Positions 40,958-43,272 of a DNA stretch of 43,514 bases are shown here, one piece after another. The DNA is taken from positions 1-43,514 of the IMG/VR virus record IMGVR_UViG_3300025679_000012; one strand, given 5' to 3'. This DNA is from a virus. The position numbers and the translations under genes are program-made. The number at the start of each line of letters is the position of its first letter. The first letter of the stretch is position 1. The notes under the pieces were generated by a model, which saw only the letters and a program-made list of their open reading frames with translations, searched no databases and was not told the origin of the DNA.

Positions 40958-41299
40958 ATGGCACGCGCACGCAGAGCCACAGACGGCAACGGCACCGTAT
41001 ACATAGCCATCGAATGCAAGGGGTGTGACGAACGCCACACCGTCGTCGTAGCGCGTGGCATCGGAGACATCGGTCCCGTGTGGGGATTCAATGGCTCGCT
41101 CGAGCTACCAACATTCACACCATCACTACGAGTCACTTGGCCGGCGAACCCTAACGCGATAGCAGGCTTTGAGGAGTGGCGCACCGAGAGATGTTGTCAC
41201 TCGTTCGTCGCCGACGGCAGAATCCAGTACCTCGGAGACTGTACGCACTCACTGGCCGGACAGACCATAGACCTACCGGAGATATCGGGTGTAGAATAA
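40958..41299 (+). CDS. DUF6527 family protein
   Basis: 113 residues from ATG 40958. Matches the DUF6527 pattern: WGFNGSLELPTFTPSL, then CHSFVADGRIQYLGDCTHSL and AGQTIDLP. The family is small, found in phages and plasmids, with conserved Cys/His (CKGCDERH, CCHSF, DCTH) that may bind metal. Function not known. Last gene before the RNA locus. Confidence 0.65.
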   Translation: MARARRATDGNGTVYIAIECKGCDERHTVVVARGIGDIGPVWGFNGSLELPTFTPSLRVTWPANPNAIAGFEEWRTERCCHSFVADGRIQYLGDCTHSLAGQTIDLPEISGVE

Positions 41300-41384
41300 A
41301 GACGGGGGAGCAATGCAACCGAGGTCCAAGGCTTAGCCACATGGACACACACATCAACCGCATCACTCCCCCACCAGCTCTTTC

Positions 41385-41423
41385 AAAGGAGGTGATCACA
41401 TATCTCTGGCGAGTCCCAGCCGC
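41385..41423 (+). promoter_or_regulatory. Bipartite anti-16S tail (extended Shine-Dalgarno)
   Basis: A 13-nt AAAGGAGGTGATC lies at 41385-41397 and an 8-nt CCAGCCGC at 41416-41423, with a 19-nt gap (after the shared 12 nt) containing CTC-TGGC-GAG. It would pair to the anti-Shine-Dalgarno and h45 region of 16S rRNA. The nearest start-like codon is ATA at 41400 with a 9-codon frame ending TAA at 41427. Confidence 0.55.
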
Positions 41424-41431
41424 CAGTAACT

Positions 41432-41463
41432 AACACCCCGCCGTTGACGGGGTGTTCTTTTTT
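41432..41463 (+). terminator. Intrinsic terminator with promoter -35 in its hairpin
   Basis: AACACCCCG (41432-41440), loop CCGTTGA, CGGGGTGTT (41448-41456), then a T run (41458-41463). A TTGACG in the loop/3' arm is the -35 of the next promoter. Confidence 0.85.
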
Positions 41464-41471
41464 GAGATAAT
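41444..41471 (+). promoter_or_regulatory. Promoter of the tmRNA gene
   Basis: TTGACG (41444-41449), 16-nt spacer, GATAAT (41466-41471). The transcript would begin near 41478, leaving a ~40 nt leader before the mature tmRNA end. Confidence 0.55.
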
Positions 41472-41517
41472 GGGCTGGACTGGTACACGAGAGCGCAATG
41501 GCTCCGGTCAGTTGATT

Positions 41518-41875
41518 GGGCTCGAATTAGATTCGACTCCGGCGTTCTTTGAAAAGTTGCGATGCAAGCGCACCCGATCGCTTCTCTCGGGTAAAACTCA
41601 AAAGCAAAATCTATTGCTTCTCCGTACTTCTCGAACGCTGGCAGTCTTCGGACTCCTGCATTCGCCTAGCGACGGCGTCGACCATATTGCGGACGTGCGC
41701 AAAATGGCCCGGCGTAAACAATCACGTATGGTGGAGGTAACATGAACCCAGTCCAATGGGCAATGCCCCGGGGTCCGCGTATGCGGGCCGACGAGCTCAA
41801 GCGCTACTTGAGACAGGCATCGTAGACGCTTTTCAATGACACTGAAGGACCCGGGTGCAAATCCCGGCGAGTCCA
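41518..41875 (+). ncRNA. ssrA: tmRNA (ssrA), phage-encoded
   Basis: The 5' end GGGCTCG (41518-41524) pairs with CGAGTCC (41868-41874), discriminator A at 41875, and the conserved GATTCGAC follows the acceptor arm. T arm CCGGG-TGCAAAT-CCCGG (41851-41867 region). An H-type pseudoknot (AAGCG/CGCTT with ACCCGA/TCGGGT, 41566-41592) precedes a tag frame from GCA 41604 to TAG 41667-41669: AKSIASPYFSNAGSLRTPAF and a last A, ending -AFA like some bacterial tags. A second pseudoknot (CTCAAG/CTTGAG, CGCTA/TAGaCG) lies at 41796-41828. Length 358 nt is normal. CCA is not encoded; the T loop has G in place of U55. tmRNA rescues stalled ribosomes with host SmpB. Confidence 0.85.
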
Positions 41876-41882
41876 CACGATC

Positions 41883-41966
41883 GTGCTCTGTCCCCCGAGG
41901 CGCGGTAAAGTCGGATCAGACCAAGCTCCCGCACAATATGAGTCCCAGCCTCCGGGGAGAGCGCAC
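41883..41966 (+). ncRNA. Rod-like structured RNA downstream of the tmRNA
   Basis: Arms GTGC, CT, TCCCC and GAGGC (41883-41901) pair with GCCTC, GGGGA, AG and GCAC (41948-41966) at equal spacing with symmetric mismatches. The loop contains further small helices (GCGG/CCGC, GTC/GAC). It lies between the tmRNA and the protease gene. May be a processing product, leader of the protease mRNA, or packaging site. No coding frame of note. Seen as complementarity; function unknown. Confidence 0.4.
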
Positions 41967-42030
41967 GACAAAGATATCCACACCTTGACTATGAAAGCAC
42001 CATGAGGGGTGTTAATCTTTATGTATTCCC

Positions 42031-43272
42031 ATGAAGACACTCACCACTGAACAAGCTCGCGTGAGAGCGAGCGGTAAATACATCGGCATCTTCCCCTTCG
42101 AGTTCGACGATGGGGGTGGTGGCACAGGTAGCGTGACGATACCGCGCACGATTCACCTGATACCGATTGGGACGTGGGATCATGACCTCTACGGTCCAAT
42201 AATTATTACGCCTGCTGACATCCGGCAATTCGCGTCCAACTTTAATGCAGGTATCCGCAAGGGTATCTTCATCACAGCCGGGCACGAGGGCTATGCCGAG
42301 CTGCCTGCGCAGGGGTGGATAACTTCGGTAGAAGCGCGTGACGACGGTCTGTGGGGCGTGGTAGACTGGAACCAGCTAGGAGTAGAGACTTTGAGCGACA
42401 AGCAATACAAGTTTTTCTCTCCTGAGTTCTTCCTCGAATACGCCGACCCAGAGACGCATGAAGTTACGAAGAACGTTCTCACCGGCGGCGCACTCACAAA
42501 GAGCCCTTACTTCAAGGAACTCGAGGCCGTGGTCTTCTCGGATAGAAACATTACAAAGAAAATTAATACTAACGAAAACATTATGGATATTGCAGAAATT
42601 CTCAAGCTCGACAAGGCCACTCTGACCGACGAGCAAAAGGCTTTTATTAAGACCAACGCCGACAAGCTCACTGACGAGCAGAAGGTGGAGTACAAAGACG
42701 TCGTAGGCGAGGCGGATGCCCCTGCAGAGACGGACGAGGAAAAGACCGCACGCGAGGAAAAGGAGAAGGGCGATGCCAACGAGGCAGCCGGACTCAACCG
42801 CGACGGCTCAGCCAAGACTGCAATCGACGCATCCGAAAAGGTGCAGATCAGTGCAGGCGAACTCGCAGCACTCACCAAGGCAGCGAACGAGGGCAAGTCT
42901 GCATTCGCAGAGCTCCGCACGAGCAAGATCACTGCGTCTGTCAAAAGCCTCGTCTTCAATTCAAAAACCAACAGTGTCGGACGGTTCCTCCCGAAGAGTG
43001 AAGCAGCCCTTCAGTCTTTCATGGAGAAGCTCGATGACGGACAACGCGCTGCGTTTGCAACGTTGGTAGCAGAACTGCCAAGTTCGCAGATTTTCGCCGA
43101 GAAGGGCGATGCTGGGACGATGACGGGTTCAGCTGAATCGGAGGTAGAAGCAAAGACCACGAAGCTCATGACTGAGAAGAAGATGTCGTACAGCGACGCT
43201 CTCAAGCAGACCTTCGCGGAGGATGCAGCACTGCACGAACGCTACGTCGCAGAGACGGGCACGCGCAATTAA
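42031..43272 (+). CDS. Prohead protease with nested scaffold (Mu gpI/gpZ-like)
   Basis: 413 residues. The first ~180 residues match the Mu-type head protease: IPIGTWDHDLYGPIIITPAD, FITAGHEGYAELPAQGWIT, FFSPEFFLEYADPETHEVT with SPEF near 130, GGALTKSPYFKELEAVV. The rest is a charged helical scaffold. An in-frame ATG at 42583 (Met185, MDIAEILKLDKATLT) is preceded by AACGAAAACATT, like other leaders here, so a separate scaffold of 229 residues may be made, as Mu makes gpZ inside gpI. Cleaves scaffold and capsid during head maturation. Confidence 0.82.
   Translation: MKTLTTEQARVRASGKYIGIFPFEFDDGGGGTGSVTIPRTIHLIPIGTWDHDLYGPIIITPADIRQFASNFNAGIRKGIFITAGHEGYAELPAQGWITSVEARDDGLWGVVDWNQLGVETLSDKQYKFFSPEFFLEYADPETHEVTKNVLTGGALTKSPYFKELEAVVFSDRNITKKINTNENIMDIAEILKLDKATLTDEQKAFIKTNADKLTDEQKVEYKDVVGEADAPAETDEEKTAREEKEKGDANEAAGLNRDGSAKTAIDASEKVQISAGELAALTKAANEGKSAFAELRTSKITASVKSLVFNSKTNSVGRFLPKSEAALQSFMEKLDDGQRAAFATLVAELPSSQIFAEKGDAGTMTGSAESEVEAKTTKLMTEKKMSYSDALKQTFAEDAALHERYVAETGTRN
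42583..43272 (+). CDS. Nested in-frame scaffold protein (alternative start)
   Basis: 229 residues beginning MDIAEILKLDKATLTDEQKA. Acidic helical scaffold-type protein (DEEKTAREEKEKGDANEAAG). Translation from this start would leave the protease domain out. The A-rich leader before the ATG is like leaders of separate genes. Expected from Mu gpI/gpZ, not proven. Confidence 0.55.
   Translation: MDIAEILKLDKATLTDEQKAFIKTNADKLTDEQKVEYKDVVGEADAPAETDEEKTAREEKEKGDANEAAGLNRDGSAKTAIDASEKVQISAGELAALTKAANEGKSAFAELRTSKITASVKSLVFNSKTNSVGRFLPKSEAALQSFMEKLDDGQRAAFATLVAELPSSQIFAEKGDAGTMTGSAESEVEAKTTKLMTEKKMSYSDALKQTFAEDAALHERYVAETGTRN

Follow-up and report, generated by a model that had tools for sequence, protein, structure and literature searches.

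A tailed phage that has head genes of the Mu-like kind and probably infects ultra-small Parcubacteria carries a tmRNA of its own among these genes, after the portal and before the protease, and this RNA appears to serve ribosome rescue (probability roughly 0.7). The phage is represented by the 43.5-kb virus record IMGVR_UViG_3300025679_000012, analysed over its full 43,514 nucleotides (the window), which encodes a Mu-like portal (PF06074), an I-type protease (PF10123) and a large terminase. The gene, its tag, the charging determinant, the junction in front of it and the host signature are read from the sequence, and from these we infer separate transcription, trimming, CCA addition, charging, SmpB delivery, tagging and proteolysis. 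Phage tmRNAs are known but rare (402 of 18,146 phage genomes; PMC9004378) and their use is unproved; our literature search found no report of a tmRNA from a Patescibacteria phage.

The tmRNA lies in a 731-bp locus (41300-42030) without a convincing protein gene, the longest stretch of the record outside plus-strand ORFs of at least 100 aa. The next-longest plus-strand gap measures 364 bp, and smaller ORFs lie within most of the other gaps; ORFs such as 41452-41745 overlap the tmRNA. The preliminary description of this DNA, which had marked a gene-free locus of ~730 bp here, was thus correct on this point.

Table 1. Features of the locus and its flanks (positions in the window)
Feature	Position	Strand	Details
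DUF6527 gene, upstream flank	40958-41299	+	113 aa; Pfam PF20137, E 2.8e-8
Predicted structured RNA 1	about 41303-41376	+	GGGGGAG/CTCCCCC stem, ends ACCA; tRNA-like length, no T-arm
Anti-SD complement AAAGGAGGTGATC	41385-41397	+	13 nt, complementary to the canonical 16S anti-SD tail over its full length; the genome's only match of at least 10 nt
Small hairpin CUGGCGAGUCCCAGCCGCCAG	41406-41427	+	-10.6 kcal/mol, z -3.7
Intrinsic terminator of the upstream (portal, DUF6527) transcript	41432-41463	+	Hairpin 41432-41456, 9-bp stem, then CTTTTTT
Putative tmRNA promoter, overlapping the terminator	41444-41471	+	TTGACG 41444-41449, 16 nt, extended -10 TGAGATAAT 41463-41471
Predicted tmRNA 5' precursor leader	41472-41517	+	46 nt, from the end of the -10 to the start of the Rfam match
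One-piece tmRNA (ssrA)	41518-41878	+	Rfam RF00023, 52.8 bits (permissive filters), E 9.8e-20, model 1-374 of 374
5' acceptor strand GGGCTCG	41518-41524	+	7/7 pairs with 41868-41874; G3-U70 present
Pseudoknot PK1	41566-41592	+	AAGCG/CGCTT and ACCCGA/TCGGGT; read off against the PK1 sequences of hosts, L004 and L009
Tag reading frame	41604-41669	+	21 residues, AKSIASPYFSNAGSLRTPAFA; resume codon GCA at 41604, stop TAG 41667-41669
Motif GTGGAGGTAACATGAACC	41731-41748	+	Among phage tmRNAs only
T-arm and 3' acceptor strand	41851-41878	+	CCGGG-TGCAAAT-CCCGG, CGAGTCC, discriminator A, then CAC (not CCA)
Predicted structured RNA 3	41880-41969	+	Long stem CGUGCUCUGUCCCC.../...GGGGAGAGCGCACG
Promoter-like element of the protease gene	41974-42018	+	Ends in TGTTAATCT (42010-42018)
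Mu-like I protease/scaffold, downstream flank	42031-43272	+	413 aa; PF10123, E 3e-17; phrog_328

The tmRNA gene and its tag

The match to the one-piece tmRNA family was obtained with permissive filters, against a gathering score of 47 bits. Both ARAGORN and a default-filter Rfam scan of the region missed the gene, probably owing to its odd T-loop, which has G rather than U at loop base 55 (the usual T-loop being UUCRANY). The D-loop has AG where others have GG, an elbow contact that is usual but not needed for homology. The other three phage tmRNAs, described below, have TTCGATT or TTCAATT as T-loops and GG in the D-loops, and the window tmRNA has the lowest Rfam score among the three copies at the portal-protease site. 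It is mainly because of these departures from the usual letters that doubt attaches to the activity of the window tmRNA, not to its homology.

The acceptor stem (GGGCUCG/CGAGUCC) keeps the AlaRS identity pair G3-U70, which is present in all 27 tmRNA sequences compared. The host stem is GGGGATG/CATCTCC; in the phage stems, pairs 4-69, 5-68 and 6-67 are different, mostly through changes on both sides, and pairing is still complete. The tag frame sits behind PK1, and its position and C-terminus match the tag called independently by ARAGORN in the relative L009 (AKATVSQFFPTVASLRTPAFA, then stop), which is of equal length. The final eight residues before the stop, SLRTPAFA, are common to the two tags and most of their codons differ synonymously; the tag of a second relative, L004, of which ARAGORN reported the end only, reads ATKAVQSPYFASVKDVLAGRDLVLA followed by a stop. 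The window tag ends in TPAFA and carries the SPYF signature of host-order tags, and peptides tagged by this tmRNA would end in SPYFSNAGSLRTPAFA.

These details bear on whether the gene is a decaying passenger, a once-useful copy that has lost its elbow contacts and is no longer charged or admitted to the ribosome. The changed base 55, the shift from GG to AG, the CCA that is not encoded and the ARAGORN miss would fit such decay, as would the lack of a tmRNA in most relatives, and the hosts have their own tmRNA; yet the acceptor and T stems are fully paired, the former with both sides changed relative to hosts, G3-U70 is kept, the tag frame is intact with synonymous changes against L009, and CCA is likewise not encoded in many host tmRNAs. 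We regard decay as unlikely.

Further candidates in this region were rejected. Two tag frames further downstream, AQNGPA and AKWPGVNNHVWWR (each ending in a stop), have no PK1 before them and no match in relatives, and the ATG of an SD-led 27-codon frame at 41743 within the tmRNA is ACG in L004 and CCG in a third relative, L020. Rfam matches to rnk, rimP and sR32 scored far under the cut-off.

The terminator-promoter junction and the flanking RNAs

In front of the tmRNA, the terminator of the upstream transcript runs into a putative promoter with GATAAT at 41466-41471, TG in front of it and 10 of 12 consensus matches; promoter-like sites number 4 in 1.8 kb, versus 0.7 +/- 0.9 in shuffles. The succession of strong hairpin, U-tract and extended -10 is found in the window, L004 and L009 (TTTTTGAGATAAT, TTTTTGATACACT and TTTTTGATACAAT, respectively), the extended -10 abutting the U-tract as TGATACACT in L004 and TGATACAAT in L009. 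These two phages are ~60% identical to the window phage in the portal protein, and their terminators stand at the corresponding place. The string TTTTTGA followed by the -10 occurs at these three loci only within 576 kb searched on both strands, a figure that expresses rarity and not independence, as the pattern was drawn from the same loci. Host tmRNAs were rejected as the source of the junction, none being seen in the 110 nt upstream of them.

The preliminary description had reported a terminator here, which its nine pairs, the CTTTTTT tract and the counterparts in L004 and L009 confirm, and had held that a promoter -35 inside the hairpin tightly links termination to the start of the tmRNA. 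Such a -35 is present in the window (a 5/6 match) and only there, the same position reading TTGCTG in L009 and TTCGCC in L004, and a promoter scan found no -35/-10 pair in either. The linkage survives as the U-tract/extended -10 junction kept in all three phages; the hairpin -35 as its essential element does not.

The promoter-like element before the protease gene would give a very short mRNA leader. Relatives that lack the tmRNA have TGCTATAAT or TGTTATAAT at the corresponding position, a few bases before the ATG, and because the element is kept in them, the tmRNA unit was apparently inserted before an existing promoter. In Mu, the late promoter PI precedes gene I; the phages studied here likewise have a promoter directly upstream of the I-type protease, whereas theirs is of the extended -10 type with a very short leader, and in the window the tmRNA unit is inserted before it. 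An extended -10 close to the ATG is seen in the protease genes of the window phage and of L005-L008, which suggests leaderless or near-leaderless mRNAs.

The tmRNA is flanked by two strong predicted folds, RNA 1 (-27.8 kcal/mol, z -5.1, 0 of 200 shuffles as good) and RNA 3 (-39.7 kcal/mol, z -4.1, no shuffle as good). Neither matches an Rfam family, and the sole relative containing them (L002) has an identical copy, for which reasons the structures stand as predictions; they are not conserved in L004 or L009. Both were rejected as tRNAs. The 7-bp stem and ACCA end of RNA 1 would fit, but a T-arm is missing, and RNA 3 lacks a cloverleaf with a T-arm, none being found by eye; ARAGORN and Rfam were negative for both. 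Most simply, the two may be decayed tRNA-like genes or processing structures. The 11-mer GAGTCCCAGCC occurs on either side of the tmRNA (41413-41423 and 41941-41951) and resembles its 3' acceptor strand, a repeat possibly due to chance.

Three structured RNAs forming a coordinated translation-control locus had been proposed from the sequence at the outset. The tmRNA is supported as an RNA by its family match, RNAs 1 and 3 have strong folds without comparative support, and the proposal is supported only in part, by a tmRNA, a gene of translation quality control, behind a terminator/promoter junction. That RNA 1 with the 13-nt SD sequence, the tmRNA and RNA 3 act jointly on ribosomes is improbable: the folds are strong and anti-SD complements are concentrated beside tmRNAs, but the flanking RNAs are not conserved in L004 or L009 and an anti-SD was found in 0 of 23 sampled 16S rRNAs of the host order.

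Relatives and host

Searches with portal and protease yielded about two dozen related contigs. Just three have a tmRNA, L004 and L009 at the same site and L020 upstream of terL, and the tmRNA is thus dispensable within the phage group; in L005-L008 the portal adjoins the protease. Scanning viral sequences twice for the shared 17-nt motif revealed no further tmRNA phage. The neighbours of the tmRNA are not a conserved set, since L004 has a tRNA-Met directly before it and a short tRNA-like sequence after it where L009 has small ORFs; L009 also has a DUF6527 homologue, downstream of the tmRNA there. The sequence in L004 (9628-9690, ~62 nt) has a T-arm and an acceptor stem and resembles a tRNA cut short, and L020 has a tRNA-like gene with an abnormal anticodon arm (2480-2558; ARAGORN: tRNA-???) directly behind AGGAGGTGATC.

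The four phage tmRNAs group apart from host tmRNAs (tree support 90/76; 88% of bootstraps), the window copy sharing ~46% identity with the closest host tmRNA sampled. An 18-nt motif is common to three phage tmRNAs and was not seen in hosts; GTGGAGGTAACATGAACC has 1 mismatch in L004, 5 in L020, 7 in L009 and at least 6 in each of 23 host tmRNAs. The form GTGGAGGTAACAYGAACC was seen at 41731-41748 of the window, 9510-9527 of L004 and 2019-2036 of L020, and in none of the host tmRNAs. The relationships suggest that these tmRNAs form a single old lineage among phages and have changed place within it, more than that they were captured recently; a single origin is favoured, not proved, by a tree that is weak overall. 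Although ssrA is a common integration target, it is very improbable that the phage bears this sequence through integration into a host ssrA, as the gene is complete with its tag and is situated among the head genes, a long core identical to a host tmRNA was not seen at this low identity, and the nearest host prophage remnant has a serine recombinase as its neighbour and no tmRNA within the 7 kb searched.

The SPYF motif of the tag, a decayed prophage and absent Shine-Dalgarno (SD) sites point to an order of Parcubacteria, that of 21-54-25, as host; no CRISPR match backs the assignment, which draws on one MAG contig together with these signatures. The decayed prophage, in Parcubacteria group bacterium 21-54-25, has a portal fragment 79% identical to that of the phage. 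The remnant (L037, 128-4832) also has a small-terminase-like frame, which by eye resembles the small terminase-adjacent protein of the phage. The SPY motif occurs in 17 of 23 tmRNAs of the host order (15 from ARAGORN calls and 2 read by hand) versus 0 of 26 in a phylum-wide sample. Phage tmRNA tags can serve as markers of the host where CRISPR matches are lacking. Within the order, the tmRNA model matched in 60 of 60 genomes (53 over the cut-off) and SmpB was found in 53 of 60; no smpB was found in the phage records.

SD motifs show no excess in phage genes or in host genes. The anti-SD is absent from all 23 readable 16S 3' ends of the host order (loci L094-L121), while 21 of 27 elsewhere in the phylum have CACCTCC. 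The tails of the order, for example GGAATATTTCAA instead of GGATCACCTCCTTT, indicate an apparently order-wide loss; loss of the anti-SD core has been reported for Campbellbacteria and Wolfebacteria (PMC10783764).

Proposed use of the tmRNA and the anti-SD complements

The tmRNA of this phage lineage probably works together with SmpB and AlaRS of the host to rescue and tag, and we consider it likely that it acts as a tmRNA during infection. The upstream head-gene transcript would end at the hairpin and host RNA polymerase would restart at the extended -10, making the tmRNA as a separate unit. Its precursor would be trimmed, RNase P presumably removing the leader, and CCA would be added. Host AlaRS would then charge the phage tmRNA and host SmpB would take it to stalled ribosomes, where rescued chains would receive the tag and subsequently be degraded, the phage tmRNA thereby supplementing the host's own.

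With bacterial one-piece tmRNAs (RF00023), the window copy shares the tRNA-like domain with G3-U70, PK1, the resume codon GCA and the tag frame; it differs in being phage-encoded, in its T-loop and D-loop and in the phage-specific motif at 41731. The tag design A[KN]...SPYF...A is that of Parcubacterial tmRNAs of the 21-54-25 order, from which the window tmRNA is set apart by its low identity, its other acceptor stem, its separate group and a record without smpB. The OM43 phage Melnitz also has a complete ssrA near a promoter, but its tmRNA is two-piece with a glutamine riboswitch (PMC9004378), whereas the window tmRNA consists of a single piece, follows a terminator/promoter junction and encodes a tag of Parcubacterial type. 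Mycobacteriophage DS6A is another phage with a tmRNA homologue, reportedly a CDS-less form without a tag frame that inhibits host tmRNA (mentioned in PMC11915505), in contrast to the intact tag frame here.

The preliminary description left out one extra translation-related feature of the locus, the 13-nt anti-SD complement. This site was rejected as the SD sequence of a gene: no ATG, GTG or TTG with an open frame stands at normal spacing (5-9 nt) after AAAGGAGGTGATC, and an ATA 7 nt after GGAGG is followed by 9 codons to TAA. The tmRNA cassettes, 4.7 kb in all, contain 4 anti-SD complements of at least 10 nt, versus 1 in 622 kb elsewhere; the window site was known before counting, and the strict test, on the other three cassettes, leaves 3 complements. 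A 10-nt match in L017 was set aside because it falls in a coding frame. It is a paradox that long anti-SD complements lie beside tmRNAs though the phage core genes and the hosts do not use SD initiation. Some SD-like sites of L004, L009 and L020 serve small genes with proper start codons, and none does in the window. Most simply, AAAGGAGGTGATC may be left over from, or a signal for, small SD-led genes such as relatives have at this place; on a modest reading, it would be the residue of SD-led genes of foreign origin. It is improbable that the complements act on canonical ribosomes, which the Parcubacterial host does not have, in a second, anti-SD-bearing bacterium such as a cell carrying the Parcubacterium; if they did, the cassette would be expressed in that bacterium or its RNA would bind the 30S subunit there, as a dual-host or ribosome-capturing device. 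The small genes of these cassettes have textbook SD sites, and several encode CxxC proteins; they lie at 8799-9090 in L004, 8468-8680 in L009 and 2255-2470 in L020, in phages whose other genes are without SD sites.
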